Shown piece after piece: positions 5,643 through 23,015 of a stretch of DNA of 24,454 bases. Source of the stretch: a virus; IMG/VR virus record IMGVR_UViG_3300047470_000347, positions 1-24,454 of that record; one strand, given 5' to 3'. Below the pieces are notes generated by a model, which did not search any database, was not told where the DNA came from, and saw only the letters and a program-made list of their open reading frames with translations. Both the position numbers and the translations under genes were made by a program. How positions within the stretch are numbered: position 1 is the stretch's first letter; each line of letters starts with the position of its first letter.

Positions 5643-5673
5643 CGCAGTTTGTGTAGTGAGTACACAAGCTGCG
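5643..5673 (+). other. oriT: Candidate origin of transfer (oriT) of MobV type
   Basis: A 12-bp inverted repeat (CGCAGTTTGTGT, 5643-5654; ACACAAGCTGCG, 5662-5673; one G-T wobble) encloses a 7-base loop AGTGAGT. Relaxases of the MobV/Mob_Pre family nick near the junction of such an inverted repeat; the pMV158 site is TAGTGTG/TTA, and here TAGTGAG/TAC is in the same position. It lies 76 nt upstream of the mob start codon, the usual oriT location. The nick position is inferred by analogy only. Confidence 0.6.
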
Positions 5674-5748
5674 CTTGGGGTGACTTGCGCCGGCCTTTGC
5701 TCCGCCCGCACGCTGAAGATGAGAACACTCAGCACGGGGGAGGCAGTT

Positions 5749-6708
5749 ATGCCTTACACGATACTAAGAACAAAAAAGCTGAAGTCAGTTGTCGGGATCT
5801 TGGGATCAGGCCGGCACACATTTCGGGAGATGCCCACGCCGAACTCCAATGGCACACCCAACCTGCATGTTGGTGGCGCATCGACTGCAGCCGGTCTTGC
5901 CAACGCGGTCTTGGCCAAGCTGCCTGAACGCCGGCGTAAGGGTGCGGTGCTCTGCATTGAATATCTAATCACCGCGAGCCCCGAGGCATTCACTCGGCAT
6001 GGCGGGACGATGCCAGACACAGGCGGCTACTTCGACCGGGCCATAGCTTGGCTGAAGGCTCGGCACGGCGGCGCGAACATTGTCAGTGCAACCGTTCACC
6101 TGGATGAGAGGACGCCCCACCTTGTCGCGTACGTCGTGCCGGTGACCAAGGACGGGAGACTGTCTGCGCGTGATTTTCTCGGTGGTGCCGCCAAGCTGCG
6201 CAAGATGCAGACCGACTTCCATCATTGGTGCGGGAAGCCGTTCGGGATGTCTCGCGGGATCGAGGGAGCCAAGGCCTCACATCAGAAGGTTGGCCAGTAT
6301 TACCAGGGGCTCGCCGCTGCTGAGCCGGCCATTGAACGATCAGACTTGGCCGCTGCGGTCGTCGGGATACAGACGAAAAACTATAAGGCGCTGCTGCTGA
6401 AGGCCAAGACTTCGGCCATACAGGACGAGCTTCAACGCTCAGCCACTGAGGCGCTACATGCGCGGCAGGCGGCTCTGGATCGGCAGGTGGTCGAGCTCAG
6501 GCAGGCCCAGCGGGCGCTTGAGGATCGGGAGATAGCGTTAGAAAAAGGAATTGATCAGTTGGCAGAGGTTGATCGAGCATTCGAGCTCGCAACCCTTACA
6601 GCCACTCGGGAAAGAGATCGGGCAGACCATTTCGGGAAACGGCTGGAAGCTTTGTTGTGGAAGCTAGGGGCCGCTAACATCGAAACAGTGCCTGAACCAG
6701 CAACCTAA
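5749..6708 (+). CDS. mobV: MobV / Mob_Pre family relaxase
   Basis: This 319-residue protein opens with the family's N-terminal motif (YTILRTKKLKS). It carries motif III of MobV relaxases, HLDERTPHLVAYVVP (H117, D119, E120, P123, H124), which binds metal and supports nicking of oriT DNA. The third histidine of the classic HxDExxPHxH version is Val here, which I believe is common in Gram-negative members. The C-terminal third (about residues 215-300) is Ala/Gln/Arg-rich coiled coil, as in other Mob proteins. The ATG at 5749 is chosen over an upstream in-frame ATG (5656) because GGGGGAGG lies just before it and family homology begins there. The gene would allow transfer of the element with help from another conjugation system. 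No coupling protein or mating-pair genes are present. Confidence 0.88.
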   Translation: MPYTILRTKKLKSVVGILGSGRHTFREMPTPNSNGTPNLHVGGASTAAGLANAVLAKLPERRRKGAVLCIEYLITASPEAFTRHGGTMPDTGGYFDRAIAWLKARHGGANIVSATVHLDERTPHLVAYVVPVTKDGRLSARDFLGGAAKLRKMQTDFHHWCGKPFGMSRGIEGAKASHQKVGQYYQGLAAAEPAIERSDLAAAVVGIQTKNYKALLLKAKTSAIQDELQRSATEALHARQAALDRQVVELRQAQRALEDREIALEKGIDQLAEVDRAFELATLTATRERDRADHFGKRLEALLWKLGAANIETVPEPAT

Positions 6709-6739: not shown

Positions 6740-7804
6740 CTACTTGACGATATGGAATCGAGGTTTCGATTCTAGTTGGTAGAGCTTTCTAAAGTCTGTA
6801 GCGACCAACCCAAGGGTACTCATCATTTCTTCGTGAGAATACCCAAGATCCTCCATATGAACTTCCAATACATCAGTTGTCAATGCGGCACTCTCATGCG
6901 GAAAATCAAGCTCAGATGGTTCTCTTAGTCGAAACCCCATACTACTAAGCTGCCGCCACATGTAGTCTCCTTGGGATTTCGTAATTGCTCCGATAGTTAT
7001 CGAGCGATATAAAAGAGCCGCTATGGACACCTTCCAAACTGGTTTGAGTGCTGCAAGCGATTTTATGCTCGCGTACTTGAGGTCGTAATAAATATCCTTG
7101 GAAGGCATAAGAAACGCGGCAGCAAATTTATTTGCCTCGTCCTCCATTGAAGGGCTTGGCTGCCGATGCATTATTAAGTGGCCCAGCTCATGCGCCAGTG
7201 AAAACCTCATCCTGTCTGCCGGCTGATTCTTGCTGAGGAATATGCACGGGGGCATTCCTTTAACAGCCATCGTAACCCCATCAACCTTCCCATCTGGAAA
7301 GTCGCAGACAAAAATAAGAACTCCAGCCCTCTCAACGAAATCAATTAAGTTTTTAACTGGCCCGTTGGGCATCATCCAAGTCCTACGAACAAGAGATGCA
7401 ATTTCTTCGGCGTCACCGCCATACTGCTCTATATCAAGATAAGGGAGTTCGTACTCCTTCGATATATCAACAGACCTCAAAAGCTTTCTATAGTGCATCA
7501 TCCGAAGGTTCATTTCGGCCTGAACGGAGTCCAGCGTTTTCTGAGGAACGCTGGCTTTTTTCCTGTAGGCGTGAACACTAATAGGGAGCCCATAGACCCT
7601 ATCTTGATTGAAAAAGTGCACTTGTGGAAAGGACAACACCCTGGACAAAATTTCCAAGGTGTCTTCTCCCGGCTCAATTAGACCGTTTTCTATTTTTGAC
7701 AAGTAGCCTTGCGTTATTCCGGTTGCTTTGGCAAGTGCTATCTGGCTAACACCACGGAATTGTCGAGCCAATTGGAGCATTTCCGGATTGAATCTATTAT
7801 TCAT
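6740..7804 (-). CDS. XRE-family regulator fused to ImmA/IrrE metallopeptidase
   Basis: This 354-residue two-domain protein has an N-terminal XRE helix-turn-helix (about residues 8-62, with SQIALAKATGITQGYLSKIENG). It also has an ImmA/IrrE (COG2856, M78-like) peptidase domain with HELGH at 205-209 and the downstream ligand region EDEANKFAAAFLMP (E223 as probable third ligand). Such proteins cleave or inactivate repressors, or act as antitoxin/regulators in toxin-antitoxin and defence loci. Its ATG overlaps the stop of the upstream 212-aa gene (ATGA), so the two are translationally coupled on the reverse strand. The base composition of this pair is visibly more AT-rich than its neighbours, which points to separate acquisition. 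I favour a toxin-antitoxin or phage-defence unit; a lysogeny regulator is the alternative. Confidence 0.85.
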   Translation of the reverse strand: MNNRFNPEMLQLARQFRGVSQIALAKATGITQGYLSKIENGLIEPGEDTLEILSRVLSFPQVHFFNQDRVYGLPISVHAYRKKASVPQKTLDSVQAEMNLRMMHYRKLLRSVDISKEYELPYLDIEQYGGDAEEIASLVRRTWMMPNGPVKNLIDFVERAGVLIFVCDFPDGKVDGVTMAVKGMPPCIFLSKNQPADRMRFSLAHELGHLIMHRQPSPSMEDEANKFAAAFLMPSKDIYYDLKYASIKSLAALKPVWKVSIAALLYRSITIGAITKSQGDYMWRQLSSMGFRLREPSELDFPHESAALTTDVLEVHMEDLGYSHEEMMSTLGLVATDFRKLYQLESKPRFHIVK

Positions 7805-10920: not shown

Positions 10921-12126
10921 TTGCCACTGTCAGATACCACCATCCGTACCGCCAAGCCCAAGGACAAGCTTTATCGCCTGACCGACGCCAACGGTCTATG
11001 CCTTGAAGTCACCCCTACGGGATCAAAGCTTTGGCGCTACCGCTACCGCTTCAACGGCAGCGCGAAGATGCTGGCTCTCGGCACCTACCCCGCTGTAACG
11101 CTGCTCAAAGCTCGCCAGATGCGCGATGAGAGCCGCCAGATGCTTATTGATGGCGTCGACCCAGGCGAACAAAAGAAAGCCGCCAAGCAAGCGCAGAAGG
11201 TCGAAGGGATCACGTTCGAAACACTTGCACGTGAGTGGTTCGCCTATAACGCGCCGCGCTGGGCAGAAAGCACCACCTACAAAGCCAAGCTGTACCTGGA
11301 GAACGATCTGATTCCCGGCATCGGTTCTCGCGCCCTTAAATCGATTACCCGGCCTGAGCTGGTGGAGCTTGTTCGCAAGGTCGAGGCCAGAGGCACGTTG
11401 AATGCCGCCGGCAAGATTCGCCAGTGGCTTCACCAGATCTTTCGCTACGGCCTGGCCAAGGGCGTCGTTGATGCGAATCCTGCTACCGATCTGAGTGTGG
11501 TCGCAGCGCCAGCCAAAGCCGCCCGCCATCATCCCCATGTCGCTTTCGCTGAGTTGCCAGAGCTTTTGAGCAAGTGCGAAGCCGCGAACATCCATACCCT
11601 GACACGAAGTGCTATCAGGCTGCTGGTGCTGACCGCCGTTCGACCTGGTGAGCTCCGGGGGGCGCCATGGGCTGAGTTCGATCTGGATAACGCTACCTGG
11701 ACAATCCCCAAAGAACGGATGAAGGCCCGCCGGCCACATGTTGTGCCGCTTCCCATACAGGCCGTCGACATCCTGCGCCAACTTCAGGAAGTAACCGGCC
11801 GCTACGTTCTGGTCTTTGCCGGGGCAAACCCTGAAAGGCCTATGAGCGAAAATACGGTCAACAAGGCACTGCGCCAGATGGGCTACGAAGGGCGCCAGAC
11901 AGGCCACGGCTTCAGACATTTGCTCAGTACCGAACTGAATGGTCGCGGTTACAACAAGGATTGGATTGAGCGCCAACTCGCCCACGGCGACACGGACGAG
12001 ATCCGAGGGACTTACAACCATGCCGCCTACGTGCCGCAGCGACGAGAAATGATGCAGGCGTGGGCAGACTCAATAGACGCTCTATGTGCAGGCAACAAAG
12101 TAGTCAGCATCAAACTTAAGGCATGA
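10921..12126 (+). CDS. int: P4-type tyrosine integrase (DUF4102)
   Basis: This 401-residue site-specific recombinase integrates and excises the element at the att site. It has an N-terminal DUF4102 arm-binding domain (about 1-90; LTDANGLCLEV, LWRYRYRFNG, LGTYPAVTLLKAR), a core-binding SAM-like domain (about 98-195) and a C-terminal catalytic domain. Visible catalytic residues are R241 (LTAVRPGEL), K268 region, H329 and R332 (GHGFRH), H355 (LAHGDTD) and Y370 (NHAAYVPQRR). The start is TTG at 10921, preceded by AAGGGGG; the N-terminus MPLSDTTIRTAKPKDK is typical of the family. It lies just downstream of attP and points away from it, as usual. Length and motifs indicate an intact enzyme. Confidence 0.95.
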   Translation: MPLSDTTIRTAKPKDKLYRLTDANGLCLEVTPTGSKLWRYRYRFNGSAKMLALGTYPAVTLLKARQMRDESRQMLIDGVDPGEQKKAAKQAQKVEGITFETLAREWFAYNAPRWAESTTYKAKLYLENDLIPGIGSRALKSITRPELVELVRKVEARGTLNAAGKIRQWLHQIFRYGLAKGVVDANPATDLSVVAAPAKAARHHPHVAFAELPELLSKCEAANIHTLTRSAIRLLVLTAVRPGELRGAPWAEFDLDNATWTIPKERMKARRPHVVPLPIQAVDILRQLQEVTGRYVLVFAGANPERPMSENTVNKALRQMGYEGRQTGHGFRHLLSTELNGRGYNKDWIERQLAHGDTDEIRGTYNHAAYVPQRREMMQAWADSIDALCAGNKVVSIKLKA

Positions 12127-12133
12127 CAGTTTC

Positions 12134-12190
12134 GGCTGGTCTAGCTCGACGGAGCGAAAAGCGGGTGCCCACCCGCCCGGCCAGCCATCT
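12134..12190 (+). terminator. Nested hairpins after integrase, possible terminator/attenuator
   Basis: An outer stem GGCTGG/CCAGCC (12134-12139 with 12181-12186) encloses a tight hairpin GCGGGT-GCCC-ACCCGC (12161-12176); ATCTTTT follows. It lies in the gap of about 100 bp between int and the next gene and could partly uncouple them. Confidence 0.4.
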
Positions 12191-12224
12191 TTTCGTATTT
12201 GGGCGCGCCTTGGGAGGCGTAAAC

Positions 12225-13833: not shown

Positions 13834-14055
13834 ATGGCAAGCGCTACCAATCAAGCCCCGTCCCGCAAGTTCATCAAGATCATCCAGGTCAAAGAGCTGT
13901 CCAGCCTTTCGACGTCTGAGGTCTATCGGCGTATTGCCGCCGGCACATTCCCCAAGCAAGTCACCCTGGGCCCTAAGTGCGTTGTCTGGATCGAGGCAGA
14001 GGTTTTGGCCTGGCTGGATGCTCGCATTGCTGAGAGCCGCGGTGAAGCTGCATGA
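13834..14055 (+). CDS. alpA: AlpA-family transcriptional regulator (first copy)
   Basis: This 73-residue winged-helix protein of the AlpA family has FIKIIQVKELSSLSTSEVYRRIAAGTFPKQVTLGPKCVVWIEAEVLAWLDARIAESRG. In P4-type satellites and many prophages AlpA activates excision or early genes. AGGAGG lies just before the ATG (13834), so the start is firm. It follows the palindromic operator cluster and precedes the antisense-RNA leader, so it is placed where an early switch gene is expected. It ends 25 nt before a sigma-70-like promoter for the leader. It is the more compact relative of the reverse-strand AlpA at 5127-5420. Confidence 0.93.
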   Translation: MASATNQAPSRKFIKIIQVKELSSLSTSEVYRRIAAGTFPKQVTLGPKCVVWIEAEVLAWLDARIAESRGEAA

Positions 14056-14079
14056 ATCGTCATCAGCCGTTCCCAGTGC

Positions 14080-14108
14080 TTGCCAAGCCTTATCAGGACG
14101 ACTACAGT
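14080..14108 (+). promoter_or_regulatory. Sigma-70-like promoter of the early leader transcript
   Basis: TTGCCA (14080-14085) and TACAGT (14103-14108) are separated by 17 bp. Transcription would begin near 14115 and run through the target site, attenuator, C4-like RNA and the early operon. Confidence 0.5.
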
Positions 14109-14141
14109 TCGCCTGTCACTGCAAATTCAGTGGCCGGGTGT

Positions 14142-14208
14142 AGGAACCCGAGTAAGCAAAAGGCGCCCAGCGCCCAGAACTCTGTCTCAGGCGTTTTTTT
14201 ATGCCTGA
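14142..14208 (+). promoter_or_regulatory. Antisense-RNA target site and attenuator in the early leader
   Basis: AGGAACCCG (14142-14150) and GCAAAAGG (14156-14163) are exact complements of two overlapping stretches in the hairpin-2 loop of the downstream C4-like RNA (14254-14262 and 14260-14267). Directly after lie a hairpin GGCGC-CCA-GCGCC (14162-14174), a CGCC/GGCG stem ending in seven T (14194-14200), and an alternative hairpin TCAGGC/GCCTGA (14187-14208). This is the layout of an RNA-controlled attenuator, as in the seqA region of phage P4 immunity. Confidence 0.65.
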
Positions 14209-14221
14209 AATATCGTTTTAT

Positions 14222-14299
14222 GGCGGCTGTGTGTGGGAGGGCTTCGGCCCTGCCGGGTTCCTTTTGCCCCGGTATTCCTACCCTGCACACAGCTGCCAC
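14222..14299 (+). ncRNA. C4 / P4 cI-like antisense immunity RNA
   Basis: A compact folded RNA is predicted. The outer stem GCTGTGTG/CACACAGC (14226-14233 with 14286-14293) encloses a tetraloop hairpin GGGC-TTCG-GCCC (14239-14250) and a second hairpin CCGGG/CCCGG (14253-14257 with 14268-14272) whose loop is TTCCTTTTGC. This three-stem form matches what I know of C4 antisense RNAs (P1/P7 c4, P4 cI). The exposed loop is complementary to a site upstream (14142-14163) and to a shorter one downstream (AAGGAAC, 14313-14319). It would be processed from the leader and cause premature termination of early transcription in lysogeny. The family assignment needs a covariance-model search. Confidence 0.75.
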
Positions 14300-14345
14300 C
14301 CAATCCTGTAGGAAGGAACGTGGCAGCTCCTCAGCAGAAGGAGCT
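14291..14345 (+). promoter_or_regulatory. Mutually exclusive hairpins controlling the first early gene
   Basis: AGCTGCCAC (14291-14299) pairs exactly with GTGGCAGCT (14320-14328), showing the second antisense target (AAGGAAC, 14313-14319) in the loop. Alternatively AGCTCCT (14325-14331) pairs with AGGAGCT (14339-14345), hiding the ribosome site of the gene at 14352. The two folds share bases and cannot coexist. The first also competes with the outer stem of the C4-like RNA. Confidence 0.55.
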
Positions 14346-14351
14346 CCACCC

Positions 14352-14510
14352 ATGTACGCCCTCATTCCGTCCAAAATCCGCGCACTTGTTCATCGCCGCC
14401 TGGCGCTGAGCGCTCTCCGCGCAAACTCGTCCCTAGCTGTCCGCTTGAATCGCTACAACGCCAACATGGCCATCGTTCGCGTCCTCGAGACGCAGGGCGG
14501 TGATCAATGA
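14352..14510 (+). CDS. Small basic early protein (52 aa)
   Basis: The ATG at 14352 follows AAGGAG, which can be sequestered in a hairpin. The product (MYALIPSKIRALVHRRLALSALRANSSLAVRLNRYNANMAIVRVLE...) is a short, Arg-rich amphipathic helical peptide. The frame can be extended upstream to 14052, but that extension would run through the folded antisense RNA and attenuator, so the short form is chosen. It is the first gene after the C4-like RNA, the place held by small regulated genes in P4/P1-type immunity regions. Its stop overlaps the next gene's ATG. Function unknown. Confidence 0.65.
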   Translation: MYALIPSKIRALVHRRLALSALRANSSLAVRLNRYNANMAIVRVLETQGGDQ

Positions 14511-16122: not shown

Positions 16123-17000
16123 CTGACGCAGTGATCCTTTTCCGCGAAGCGCTCCAAGCTGTCTATGGGCAGCTCGACTGGCTTCCCGTGCCAGACGGAG
16201 CCATTCACCGGTTCCGCGTCCCGGAGGACAAGCCGGGCACTGTCAATGGTTGGTACGTCCTGTATCTGGACGGTATCGCCTCAGGTGCTTTCGGCAGTTG
16301 GAAGGCCGGTGCTACCAGCACCTGGTGTAGTCGTGAGCCGGTGGACGCTCGCGAAGCCGCGCAAATTCGCGATCGAGTTGACCAAGCTCGATGCCAGCGC
16401 AAGGCCGAGCAACTTCAGCGCCAGCAGAAGGCCGCTGAACTGGCCGGCCACTGGTGGCGGAATGCGCGCCGCGCCGCTCCAGATCATCCGTACCTGGTCG
16501 CCAAAGCAGTGCGCCCTCATGGCCTGCGCCAGCGAGGAACTGACCTACTTATCCCGCTGTACTTGGATGGCCTCCTGATCAACCTGCAAAGGATCGCCCC
16601 GGATGGTGCCAAGCGCTTCTTACCCGGCGGTCGCGTGAAGGGCACTTATTCCCCGCTGGGGATCATCGAGCCCGGCTCCGTGCTCTGCATCTGCGAGGGG
16701 TGGGCGACGGCCGCCAGTCTCCACCAACACGGCGGCTACGTCGTTGCCGCTGCCATGAACGCGGGCAACCTGATCTCGGCTGCTATGGGTCTGCGTTCCC
16801 GCTACCCGGGCCAGCCAATCGTTATCGCCGGCGACGACGACCGGTTCACTGATGGCAACCCAGGACGCAAAGCGGCGAATGCTGCAGCGGCGGCCGTGGG
16901 CGGCCAGGTGGCGTTCCCGGAATGGCCAGAAGGCGTACCCGATGACCTCACAGACTTCAACGACCTCGCAAACTGGAAGCTCGCAAATGGCCAAGCCTGA
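16119..17000 (+). CDS. TOPRIM-domain DNA primase
   Basis: This 293-residue protein has an N-terminal module typical of phage/island primases (VPDGAIHRFRVPEDKPGTVNGWYVLYLDGIASGAFGSWK, about 24-62), a charged helix (80-115) and a C-terminal TOPRIM domain. The TOPRIM signature is visible: CEGWATAASL with E193, and AGDDDRF with D239-D241. Such proteins make RNA primers for replication of the element. There is no zinc-finger CHC2 motif; short primases of this family often lack it. The start at 16119 overlaps the previous stop (ATGA), and the stop overlaps the helicase start by 14 nt, so primase and helicase are one coupled pair. Confidence 0.88.
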   Translation: MTDAVILFREALQAVYGQLDWLPVPDGAIHRFRVPEDKPGTVNGWYVLYLDGIASGAFGSWKAGATSTWCSREPVDAREAAQIRDRVDQARCQRKAEQLQRQQKAAELAGHWWRNARRAAPDHPYLVAKAVRPHGLRQRGTDLLIPLYLDGLLINLQRIAPDGAKRFLPGGRVKGTYSPLGIIEPGSVLCICEGWATAASLHQHGGYVVAAAMNAGNLISAAMGLRSRYPGQPIVIAGDDDRFTDGNPGRKAANAAAAAVGGQVAFPEWPEGVPDDLTDFNDLANWKLANGQA

Positions 17001-18783
17001 CACCAACGTGATCAACCTTCGGCCTGATGCGGCGGCCATTGCGCCTGAACGACCTTGCTGGGCCGTGTACGAGCAATGGGTAATCAACGAGAAAGGCCGG
17101 AAGCTTCGCCCTGGCGTTTACTGGCACGGCTTCAAGCGCGCCTCAGATCAAGACGACGTTGAGGGCGATGGTGGCGACCGCGCCATCATTGATGAATGGA
17201 TCTCCAGCCCCGTCAAGGTTGTGGCTCGCACAACCAACAGCGATGACGGTAGTGAAGGCCGTTTACTCCGCATGGTCACCGACAACGGTGTGAAGGATTG
17301 GATCATTGCGATGGAGGTATTCGGAGGCAGCGGCGAGGAAGCCAGGCGAGCGCTGTTCTCCATGGGGGTAATCATTTCCCTCAAGAAGCGCAGTCAGTTC
17401 ATGGAGTACCTGCTCGAGCAGCGCCCAACCGAAGTTTTCGTCACCACGAGCCGGCCCGGCTGGCACGAGTCGGGGGCGTTTGTTTTGCCTGGGCGCACCA
17501 TCGGGAGTGACACGGTTCGCTACCAAGCCAGCAGCCAAACGCAGAACCTGTTTAAGACGAAGGGCGACCTGGCCACCTGGCAACTGGAGGTCGCGGCCAA
17601 GTGTGCCGGCAACCCCGTACTGACACTTTCCATCGGCTGCGCGCTGGCTGGGCCGCTATTGAGTCTAGTCGGCGTTCTCGGCGGAGGTGTTCACCTCGTA
17701 GGTGACAGCTCGAGCGGCAAGTCATTGGTTCAGTTGGTCGGTTCTTCGGTATGGGGTGACCCCGGCGTATTCGCGGCATCGTGGGACATGACCAAGGGCG
17801 GCTTGGAGATTGAGGCGTCATCACGAAACGACACCCTCCTCCCCTTGGATGAAATCAAGCGCGCCGACCCCAAACGCGTTCAAGAAATGGCCTATGCGCT
17901 GGCAAACGGGCAAGGCAAAGGCACGATGACCCGGGAGCGCGAAGGCAGAGCCAAGCTGAATTGGCGCCTGCTCGCACTTTCAAGCGGCGAGCGTTCTCTT
18001 TCCGAACACGCTGCGATCTCAGGTAACGCTGCGCACGCCGGCGCCGAGTTACGCATGGTCGACGTGAACGCGGGCACTCGCACCCATCGCGCCTTTGACG
18101 AACTGCACGGACTTGAGGGTGCGGACTTCCACCGCCAACTGACTGTTGCCGTCACTCGTAGCCATGGCCATGTCGGGCCGGCTTTCGTTGAGCGACTACT
18201 GGCTAGTGATGATCGTCCAGGGTTACTGGAGGACTTCGCCAAAGTGCGCGCCACATTCGCTGAAGACAACGCACAGGCAGGGCGAGTCGCCGACCGTTTT
18301 GCGGTAATCGCGCTGGCTTGCGAAATGGCAATCGCATACAGGCTGCTCCCATGGCCTGAAGGCAGCGCCCTGGCGGACTGCCAACTGCTGTATCGCGAAT
18401 GGCTCAACCGAGTAGGCAGCGGCAACGCGGAGGATCGCCAGATCTTGTCCGGCATTCTCGACTTCATCGATCGACACGGCAGCAGCCGATTCTCCGATGT
18501 TGGTGAAGGCCAGTCAGAGGCGAAGGTATCCAATCGAGCTGGCTATTGGGAAATGTCAGGCACCAAGCGGCTACACCTGTTCAACAAGTCGGCCCTGGTC
18601 GAAGCCGCTCATGGATATGGCATGAGTCGCATCGTCAAGGCTCTCGAGAGTGCCGGAGCCCTTGCCAAGCGCGATTCCGACAAGAAGCGCCATACCAAGA
18701 AATACCGACTTCCAGGGGGCGGGACTAGCGGCCTGTACGTAGTCGACTCAGAAGCCCTGGATCGTGAGGCACTCGGCCAATGA
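16987..18783 (+). CDS. DUF927-family helicase-like replication ATPase
   Basis: This 598-residue protein has a DUF927 domain at about residues 25-310. It contains a Walker A motif GDSSSGKS (239-246) and Walker B-like LLPLDEI (284-290), followed by a sensor-type region (LNWRLLALSSGERSL) and a C-terminal winged-helix-like tail. This family acts as the replicative helicase or loader paired with TOPRIM primases in phages and satellites. The ATG at 16987 begins inside the end of the primase gene; a longer frame from 16852 overlapping the primase is rejected. The C-terminal end is adjacent to the iteron cluster, which would be its likely origin, by analogy with the P4 alpha protein. Confidence 0.9.
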   Translation: MAKPDTNVINLRPDAAAIAPERPCWAVYEQWVINEKGRKLRPGVYWHGFKRASDQDDVEGDGGDRAIIDEWISSPVKVVARTTNSDDGSEGRLLRMVTDNGVKDWIIAMEVFGGSGEEARRALFSMGVIISLKKRSQFMEYLLEQRPTEVFVTTSRPGWHESGAFVLPGRTIGSDTVRYQASSQTQNLFKTKGDLATWQLEVAAKCAGNPVLTLSIGCALAGPLLSLVGVLGGGVHLVGDSSSGKSLVQLVGSSVWGDPGVFAASWDMTKGGLEIEASSRNDTLLPLDEIKRADPKRVQEMAYALANGQGKGTMTREREGRAKLNWRLLALSSGERSLSEHAAISGNAAHAGAELRMVDVNAGTRTHRAFDELHGLEGADFHRQLTVAVTRSHGHVGPAFVERLLASDDRPGLLEDFAKVRATFAEDNAQAGRVADRFAVIALACEMAIAYRLLPWPEGSALADCQLLYREWLNRVGSGNAEDRQILSGILDFIDRHGSSRFSDVGEGQSEAKVSNRAGYWEMSGTKRLHLFNKSALVEAAHGYGMSRIVKALESAGALAKRDSDKKRHTKKYRLPGGGTSGLYVVDSEALDREALGQ

Positions 18784-20379: not shown

Positions 20380-20919
20380 ATGTCTGGATATACCGCTGCT
20401 GTAGCAGCCGCCACTGCCGTTGCTGGGACGGCATATTCCGTTTACTCGACTCAACAATCCGGCAAGCAGGCACAGCTAAATGCTAACGCGCAGTCCGATC
20501 AGTCAAAGCTGGATGCGGACACTGCCTCCAGCGCCGCGGTGGTTCAAGCTAACCGCATTCGCAGGATCGCCCGCAATCAGGCGAGCGAGGCCAACGCCGC
20601 CCTAGCAGCCTCTGGCGTTGAAGTCGGCGCCGGTACCGCGGTGAACATCAACGAAGAAATCATCGGCAATGCCGAGGAAGACGCGGCGCTGACCATCTTC
20701 AACGGCCAAAACCAGAAAGCTCGTGGCTATGTGGATTCAGGCAACTACAAGCTGGCCGGGAGCCAGGCGCGTACCGCAGCCAACACGCAATCGATCGGCA
20801 CCGTGCTTTCCAGTGGAGCCCAAATTGCCAGCGGCTGGAAGGCATCCGCTAACGGTCGAAATATGCAGGGTCAAACCCAAGAACTGAACACCAATCCAGC
20901 TTGGGTGAGGAACTCCTAA
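20380..20919 (+). CDS. Internal virion / ejection protein, T7 gp14-like
   Basis: This 179-residue protein starts with a hydrophobic, Ala-rich segment (YTAAVAAATAVAGTAYSVYSTQQSGKQAQ) followed by a long polar helix (ADTASSAAVVQANRIRRIARNQASEANAALAASGVEVGAGTAVNIN). It ends in an Asn/Gln-rich tail. This is the pattern of T7 gp14-type core proteins, which enter the outer membrane and form the first part of the DNA-ejection channel. GGAGAA precedes the ATG. The stop overlaps the next start (TAATG). It is the first member of a gp14-gp15-gp16 set. Confidence 0.85.
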   Translation: MSGYTAAVAAATAVAGTAYSVYSTQQSGKQAQLNANAQSDQSKLDADTASSAAVVQANRIRRIARNQASEANAALAASGVEVGAGTAVNINEEIIGNAEEDAALTIFNGQNQKARGYVDSGNYKLAGSQARTAANTQSIGTVLSSGAQIASGWKASANGRNMQGQTQELNTNPAWVRNS

Positions 20920-23015
20920 TGGCACAAATCCCACTCGGCCCGGGCGTTCGCGTAATGCCCGAAGCAACTCAGAACCGCGTGATCACTCCAGATCCAAACA
21001 CGCTGAATCGAGGCGCGCAGCAGATAGCAGGCGCTGTTCAAAATGTGGCGTTGTCCCAACTTGATCAGCAAAACAGAGAAAGCCGCGAGCTTGCCAAGGT
21101 CAAAGTTAGCAATGCTCTGCTGGATTACGAAAGTCAGCTCGACACAGGTGTAAACGAGCTCAGCGGAAAACTGAAAACTCTGGAAGTCCAGCCAGAGCAA
21201 GGTGAATCAAGCTACCAGCAGTTCGTGAGCAAGCTAGAACCCCCCAAAGTCTTTGGTTTAGATATCGTAGACCAGGAGCACTTGAGTCTTGCCATGCGCA
21301 AGATGCAAGCCAGCAAACTTCAACAGATCCAAGGATCTGTGACTGAGGCGCGTACGGGAGTCGCGAAAACCGAATTACGCTCTAGGTTCGATCTGCTTGA
21401 GACCGCCGCGGCCAGGCCTGATGCTGATTTGGGGACGATATTCAACAGAGCGCGCGCCGAAGGCGTGCAGGCCGTCGGCCGTGGTGCTTATGGCATAGAC
21501 GGCTGGGACATGGAGATGCGCAATTTTGAACAATCTGCGTACTCAGCCAACGCCCTGGCCCGCATCCACAACGCGGAGAACGACCCTCAGCAACTCCAGC
21601 AGGTTCAGCATGACCTGGCCAACTGGGATGACGGCCCTTACGCATCACTGACACTCAAAAACCGTGAAAGCCTGATCAAGACCCTGAACCCGCTACTTGA
21701 TCGGAGCATTGGCGTAACAGCCGGTCAGCAAGCAATCCAGCAGGTAGCCAGTGGTAGCAACCAGCTCTTCTCAGCAATGGTTCAAGCCGAAAGTGGTGGC
21801 CGTCAGCTTGATGATGCTGGAGCTCCAATCACGTCGAGCCGTGGCGCGGTTGGCATTGCTCAGGTAATGCCCAGCACCGGCCCAGAAGCTGCCAAAGCCG
21901 CAGGTCTGCCATGGGATGAGCAGCGCTTCAAAACAGACGCGAGTTACAACCGATCTCTGGGAGAGGCTTATTTCGGCAAGCTGCTCCAGTCGTTTGATGG
22001 CTCGGAAGCATTGGCAGTTGCGGCTTACAACGCGGGGCCTGGCAAAGTCCAGGAATGGGTCAAGCAGATCGGCGATCCCCGGAAGGGAGAGATCAGTGAA
22101 GCCGACTTCATTGACCGTATTCCTTTCCAGGAAACGAAGGATTACACCCATAAGGTCATGAACAGTGCAGGGCGAGATGCGGAACCTACGTTCGGGCCCA
22201 TTGCGCAGACGATTGACGCTCGCAGCGACTTGACTCAAGAACAGAAGCGCATAGCGATCGCCGATGCTCGCGACCGGTTCAATTGGCAGCAGGATAAGGT
22301 GAAGCAAGAGCACGTCCAAAACCAAGGGCAGGCTTGGGACTTCTTGCTGAAAGGGAACAGGTGGCAAGACATCGACGCGGACGTATGGGCGAAGCTGCCG
22401 GCGAAAGACCGAAAGCAGCTCATGGGCTACCGGCCGAATCAGCAAACCGATCCTGAGGTATATACCCACGCCAGGGATCTCATCGCCAGTGGCAATGAAG
22501 TCAACCTACTCGACATGCGCGACAAGCTGAGCAACGAGGACTTCACACGCCTCACCGACCTACAAATCAAACGCCTCACCGGCGGCCCAGCCGCAACGGC
22601 CTCCATCTCCACGAGCACGGCTCTGTTTAACGACGCCCTGCGTAATGCTGGCATGCCTTCCAGCCCTAAGCCTGGATCAGCAGTAGCCAAGCAAGTGGCA
22701 ACAGCACGCCGTTATGTGGATGACCAAATACGTGGCCTTGAAGCACAGCAGGCCAAAAAAGCCACCCACGAGCAGGTGCAGCAGATCGTCGATCACGCCT
22801 TCATTGAAGGAACGGTTGAAGGGTCGGGAGTGTTCGGTTTCTTCACCGATAAGCAGCGCGCGTTTGAGCGAAAGCCTGGTGACAACGTTCGGGTCACGGA
22901 CATCAAGCAGATTCCCGCAGATGAGCACGAGCAGATTACAGCGGCGCTCAAACGCCACGGCCGCACTGTGACTGATGCCGAGATTCTCAAACTGTTCAAT
23001 GAGGCCAACCAATGA
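20919..23015 (+). CDS. Ejection protein with lytic transglycosylase domain, T7 gp15/gp16-like
   Basis: This 698-residue protein has an N-terminal Gln-rich helical part (about 1-270) and an SLT (soluble lytic transglycosylase) domain at about 280-385. The catalytic Glu291 lies in AMVQAESGGRQ, with downstream signatures SRGAVGIAQVMPSTG, EAYFGKLLQ and ALAVAAYNAGPGKVQEW. A long helical C-terminal part follows. It would cut peptidoglycan locally so that the ejection tube can cross the periplasm. The start at 20919 has GAGGAA upstream; an earlier in-frame ATG at 20901 is rejected for lack of a ribosome site. In T7 this enzyme domain sits on gp16; here it is on the middle protein. The stop overlaps the next start (ATGA). 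Confidence 0.9.
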   Translation: MAQIPLGPGVRVMPEATQNRVITPDPNTLNRGAQQIAGAVQNVALSQLDQQNRESRELAKVKVSNALLDYESQLDTGVNELSGKLKTLEVQPEQGESSYQQFVSKLEPPKVFGLDIVDQEHLSLAMRKMQASKLQQIQGSVTEARTGVAKTELRSRFDLLETAAARPDADLGTIFNRARAEGVQAVGRGAYGIDGWDMEMRNFEQSAYSANALARIHNAENDPQQLQQVQHDLANWDDGPYASLTLKNRESLIKTLNPLLDRSIGVTAGQQAIQQVASGSNQLFSAMVQAESGGRQLDDAGAPITSSRGAVGIAQVMPSTGPEAAKAAGLPWDEQRFKTDASYNRSLGEAYFGKLLQSFDGSEALAVAAYNAGPGKVQEWVKQIGDPRKGEISEADFIDRIPFQETKDYTHKVMNSAGRDAEPTFGPIAQTIDARSDLTQEQKRIAIADARDRFNWQQDKVKQEHVQNQGQAWDFLLKGNRWQDIDADVWAKLPAKDRKQLMGYRPNQQTDPEVYTHARDLIASGNEVNLLDMRDKLSNEDFTRLTDLQIKRLTGGPAATASISTSTALFNDALRNAGMPSSPKPGSAVAKQVATARRYVDDQIRGLEAQQAKKATHEQVQQIVDHAFIEGTVEGSGVFGFFTDKQRAFERKPGDNVRVTDIKQIPADEHEQITAALKRHGRTVTDAEILKLFNEANQ

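Follow-up and report, generated by a model that had tools for sequence, protein, structure and literature searches.

A C4/CI-type antisense-RNA module with an attenuated leader ahead of the replication operon of a mobile element, and its relatives in Pseudomonas

Does the stretch between an AlpA-type gene and a replication operon encode a protein of its own, or an RNA that controls the genes behind it? We addressed this question in the window, that is, the whole stretch of 24,454 nt that was analysed (positions 1-24,454 of IMG/VR record IMGVR_UViG_3300047470_000347), which comes from a mobile element whose host is Pseudomonas-like. The locus very probably serves an integrating element as its antisense-RNA immunity module, is of the C4/CI type, and is predicted to govern the replication operon of that element. 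The type of module is already known from P1 C4, P4 CI and Gifsy-1 IsrK, and its features in the window are collected in Table 1.

Table 1. Positions in the window of the C4 module, its pairing sites and the adjoining genes.
Feature	Position	Strand	Remarks
Integrase	10921-12126		Upstream of the C4 module; phage-type
AlpA-family regulator	13834-14055	+	Pfam PF05930, 4.6e-15; immediately upstream of the C4 module
Predicted promoter TTGCCA-17-TACAGT	14080-14108	+	Sigma-70-like; predicted to drive leader, C4 and downstream operon
c4-a1b1 target element	14102-14154	+	Rfam RF03163, 56.8 bits, cut-off 46.7
Attenuated leader RNA (IsrK / P4 seqA type)	14115-14200	+	Predicted start to end of U-run
a1 site GTAGGAA	14140-14146	+	Pairs with a′ of C4; covaries with a′
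9-base block AGGAACCCG	14142-14150	+	Overlaps a1; conserved only in its CCCG part
b1 site GCAAAAGG	14156-14163	+	Pairs with C4 loop; overlaps 5′ strand of antiterminator; covaries with b′ loop
Antiterminator hairpin GGCGC-CCA-GCGCC	14162-14174	+	From folding
Intrinsic terminator	14169-14200	+	14169-14174 with 14190-14195, then U-run 14194-14200
C4 antisense RNA	14216-14303	+	Rfam RF01695, 83.2 bits, curated cut-off 45
b′ loop of C4	14254-14268	+	CGGGTTCCTTTTGCC
a′ segment of C4	14275-14281	+	TTCCTAC
Hairpin A	14290-14328	+	3′ strand of C4 (14290-14299) with 14320-14328; a2 in loop
a2 site GTAGGAA	14308-14314	+	Covaries with a′
Hairpin B	14325-14345	+	14325-14331 with 14339-14345; covers Shine-Dalgarno region
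b2 site GCAGAAGGAG	14334-14343	+	Shine-Dalgarno region; ten pairs with C4 loop, one of them G-U; covariation
First controlled ORF (52 aa)	14352-14510	+	ATG 14352; conserved in related elements
Operon downstream of C4	14507-18783	+	Last gene is the primase-helicase (16852-18783)

The initial annotation had placed a C4/cI-like RNA at 14222-14299, and a covariance search with the Rfam C4 family bears this out, with a score well above the curated cut-off. The RNA folds at -49.8 kcal/mol (z -5.9; 0 of 200 shuffles as strong), and compensatory changes occur at 18 of its 28 stem pairs. C4 RNAs are cut by RNase P from a longer transcript at a GG motif; a GG is present at 14222, and the mature 5′ end is predicted near it. 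According to the initial annotation, the loop complements two blocks, of 9 and 8 bases, of an upstream site; both matches are exact (14142-14150 and 14156-14163), and none of 4000 dinucleotide-preserving shuffles of the upstream region contained the two together. What had been overlooked is a second pairing segment, a′, the complement of which is found both upstream (a1) and downstream (a2) of C4, together with the real downstream partner of the loop, b2. The 7-base downstream site first assigned to the loop, AAGGAAC, does exist at 14313-14319 but is not conserved (AAGGATC in the closest relative, L023); its match to the loop is due to chance, and downstream it is a2 and b2 that are conserved.

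Covariation of the loop with its targets in related elements, proposed at the outset as a check on such a switch that would fail if covariation were absent, was found for all four pairings, i.e. those of a′ and of b′ with their upstream and downstream sites. About 100 related C4 modules were gathered from phage records, IMG/VR and Pseudomonas genomes, and each distinct loop was scored for pairing both to its own flanks and to those of other modules, using 2000 permutations. Among the attenuator-type modules, which contributed 25 distinct a′ and 43 distinct b′, 0 of 2000 permutations reached the observed value for any of the four pairings, although these counts are not strict probabilities because the modules compared are related, even with distinct loops only. 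The mean run in these modules was longer for cognate than for non-cognate flanks both upstream (a′, 7.00 versus 4.60; b′, 6.65 versus 4.30) and downstream (a′, 7.04 versus 3.79; b′, 7.79 versus 4.30). Loop-target covariation was also found in an earlier, smaller set of modules.

The predicted promoter upstream of these sites matches the consensus at 9 of 12 positions, a match expected 0.1 times in shuffles, and a TA...T hexamer lies ~37 nt before a1, at a fixed distance in most related modules. Downstream of it the leader is laid out in the order 5′ hairpin, a1, b1, antiterminator hairpin and terminator. A permissive search matched this leader to Rfam isrK (RF01394) over its exact span, with 45.0 bits (E 1.1e-8), which lies just below the cut-off of 50 that is exceeded by relatives; the start of the match coincides exactly with the predicted leader start at ~14115.

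A predicted intrinsic terminator is present between promoter and C4, and the site that was said to lie just before an attenuator is real. Its three-strand layout (GGCGC/GCGCC/GGCGC-T7) is conserved by identity, and a permutation test of covariation is uninformative for these strands because they are nearly invariant. Here and in most related modules, the last bases of b1 are the GG that opens the antiterminator strand GGCGC. When RNA 14115-14200 was folded at equilibrium, not co-transcriptionally, the free leader gave mixed folds, and covering b1 is predicted to raise the probability of the terminator from 0.12 to 0.97 and to lower that of the antiterminator from 0.38 to 0.00. With only a1 covered, the predicted terminator stayed as it was. 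When long-range pairs were admitted, terminator pairing came out mixed in single modules, and a local measure from the predicted start was used instead. By this measure the terminator hairpin of 44 modules with a T-run rose from a mean of 0.54 to 0.93 with a1 and b1 covered (Wilcoxon p 1e-11) and was unchanged with a control stretch covered, while the window on this cruder scale moved only from 0.77 to 0.80, its large effect appearing when the specific terminator pairs are counted. Occupation of the upstream site, and of b1 in particular, is therefore predicted to cause termination. Termination at t1 of P4 needs both CI RNA and seqA, so that this attenuator model explains known behaviour in structural terms and proposes no new mechanism.

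On the downstream side, the duplex between b2 and the C4 loop has a calculated energy of -20.0 kcal/mol. Two hairpins had been suggested to compete here, and the folds agree: hairpin A shows a2 in its loop, hairpin B covers the ribosome site, and the two are mutually exclusive, since 14325-14328 is common to both. Hairpin A, of which P4 has a counterpart, covaries in the attenuator-type modules (0 of 2000 permutations); the covariation of hairpin B is weak, and we do not claim it as demonstrated. The initial annotation had seen in this a translational layer added to the switch, but the layout is the ordinary one of P1, where b2 likewise covers the ribosome site of the gene that follows. The 52-aa ORF that follows has the consensus MxALxPSxIRAxAHRRMALxALRANSSLxVRLxRY... 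in related elements, and we take its position to correspond to that of P1 icd, P4 kil and Gifsy-1 orf45. The ORFs behind it are closely packed or overlapping as far as the primase-helicase, which is in line with C4, control of a replication operon being a trait of the P4 CI type.

That all of this might be a decayed remnant, intact in sequence and out of use, is highly improbable. Nothing direct speaks for it beyond the single G-U pair in b2, whereas the stems, the promoter hexamers and all four target sites, with their match to the loops, are preserved, and the near relative L023 retains the a1, b1 and a2 pairings.

The same stretch could also be read as a protein gene. ORF 14052-14510 (152 aa) runs open through the leader, C4 and the first ORF, and its product matches Pfam Phage_ASH (PF10554; E 3e-4; 21.6 bits, under the curated cut-off of 26) as well as phrog_6928; the old cI ORF of P4 likewise matches Phage_ASH, and strongly (59.7 bits). 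The match in the window, however, spans the leader, the C4 RNA and a2 (14103-14330) and is readable as translated RNA, and conservation as protein begins only at ATG 14352. Nor is the frame conserved: it is open through C4 in only 27 of 106 modules and carries a stop in phage P1, which led us to reject a true Ash-family protein and makes any functional product of this ORF barely credible. The Phage_ASH match sits on the C4 RNA in P4 too (L129, 8168-8584, minus strand). Ash has been equated with epsilon (PMC8628076), and P4 epsilon matches a different Pfam family; given this and the strong match of the P4 cI ORF, the Phage_ASH family may in part consist of C4 RNA in translation. A search of the genomes of relatives with the Phage_ASH profile found next to nothing.

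From the sequences, the folds, their conservation and the covarying pairings, we infer expression, C4 processing, termination, repression and immunity along the following lines. The promoter would yield a transcript of the leader (with a1, b1 and the attenuator), C4 and then the replication operon, from which C4 would be excised. Free C4 would use a′ and b′ to bind a1 and b1 on newly made transcripts; once paired at b1 it would sequester the opening bases of the antiterminator stem, whereupon the terminator forms and transcription ends before C4 and the operon. Transcripts that escape would carry a2 and b2; there C4 would mask the ribosome site used by the first ORF, blocking its translation and probably that of the operon as well. 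In an uncut transcript the 3′ strand of C4 could instead pair downstream as hairpin A, breaking hairpin B and exposing the ribosome site.

The same parts could also work mainly in the opposite sense, the attenuated leader pairing in trans with the C4 part of read-through transcripts and switching the first ORF on, with C4 chiefly a target and not a repressor. IsrK has been shown to work so and its homology to P4 seqA is stated by its authors (PMC4825925), the isrK match here is exact from leader start to U-run and is above the cut-off in relatives, and hairpins A and B form a ready on/off structure. P1 and P4, on the other hand, use these pairings for repression, and C4-driven intrinsic attenuation fits the overlap of b1 with the antiterminator. 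Activation as the main mode thus appears unlikely to us, and it and repression by C4, which we prefer, are not mutually exclusive.

Several known systems come close to this one. P1/P7 (C4-icd-ant, immI) have a C4 with a′ and b′, a1/b1 before and a2/b2 after it, b1 shortly before a terminator and b2 covering the ribosome site that serves a small first gene; they differ in the sequence of the first ORF and in an operon that leads to an antirepressor, where that of the window leads to a primase-helicase. P4 CI (seqA/seqC, t1, eta/kil) is a C4 homologue (74.9 bits) with an AlpA-type gene immediately upstream, an attenuator between leader target and CI, and a primase-helicase operon under control, which in P4 leads to alpha. 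Most of the gene content is unlike that of P4, the window having a Mob_Pre relaxase and a giant phrog_9880 protein, and the open frame through C4, which in P4 is eta, is no conserved feature among the modules studied here. P4 CI is described as ending transcription by pairing with seqA and seqC (PMC4825925). Gifsy-1 of Salmonella (IsrK/orf45, STnc1160) shares the terminator-ended leader, matching isrK over the exact span, and a small first ORF in the same place, and a processed RNA of ~80 nt is reported from it (PMC4825925); unlike the scheme above, IsrK has been shown to activate, and the next gene there is an antirepressor. We assign the module to this known type because its layout recurs in P1, P4 has a C4 homologue in matching surroundings, and the authors of the IsrK study equate IsrK with P4 seqA and STnc1160 with CI (PMC4825925).

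The rest of the window gives some idea of the carrier. An int-alpA RNA (RF02996; 54 bits, cut-off 35.8) lies directly after the integrase at 12134-12203 and is shared with L004, L008, L015, L016, L019, L020 and L022. A 1533-aa ORF at 48-4649 matches phrog_9880, a giant phage family, over its C-terminal part (1250 bits), and a 704-aa protein at 20901-23015 has a transglycosylase SLT domain and matches endolysin families. The Mob_Pre relaxase domain (5656-6708) occurs in the same record as the phage-type integrase and primase, and the element is possibly a mobilisable hybrid. A second candidate regulator in addition to C4 is encoded at 6740-7804 on the minus strand, combining an HTH with an IrrE-type peptidase (PF06114, phrog_2439). 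A near-identity search of phage records gave no match, while a distant search did retrieve relatives.

Beyond phages, the C4 arrangement seems, from a wider survey, to be very common among Pseudomonas. The c4-a1b1 element was found in 181 of the 199 Pseudomonas genomes searched (at most 27 candidates scored per genome), and single genomes held 28 and 25 copies of C4. The nearest precedent is found in Acinetobacter baumannii, where a single genome encodes numerous C4-like RNAs, the Group 1 sRNAs, processed at a GG motif; an attenuator/operon arrangement is not described for them in the portion of that account drawn on here (PMC5320573). The modules fall into two classes, 60 with a long gap (47 with a T-run) and 48 with a short gap (0 with a T-run), and the short-gap, attenuator-less modules retain covarying a1, b1, a2 and b2. 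Most of the latter precede small ORFs starting MLKIVPDPP or similar; where such a peptide is the first ORF, as it often is, its ribosome site is the b2 target (Pseudomonas G001 and G005-G008; L109-L128 and L133-L152).

Five Pseudomonas genomes were compared for the genes behind these modules. A same-strand C4 lies within 1 kb upstream of 54 of 61 DUF3077 genes and 20 of 28 DUF6124 genes, and, three contig-edge C4 matches of G001 being excluded, 73 of 102 C4 matches are followed by a DUF3077 or DUF6124 gene. A literature search found no paper linking either family with C4. One locus (L142) holds four C4 modules in 9.5 kb, three of them followed by a DUF3077 gene, with a Schlafen-type helicase gene adjoining. 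Within one genome some loops fit the sites of other modules as well as their own. We lean towards the view that C4 in Pseudomonas extends beyond phage immunity, the attenuator-less form having multiplied in the chromosomes, where the same a/b pairings would control translation of the small first ORF (MLKIVPDPP...) and of the DUF3077/DUF6124 genes behind it; each genome would then run tens of loop-specific antisense switches in parallel, which might also interact with one another or with elements entering the cell.

The module in the window is a clean and complete case of C4, in which every proposed loop-target pairing is backed by covariation. It offers a concrete model of the attenuator in which, here as in most related modules, the loop target overlaps with the stem of the antiterminator, and the survey that grew around it provides a first handle on the uncharacterised DUF3077 and DUF6124 gene families.
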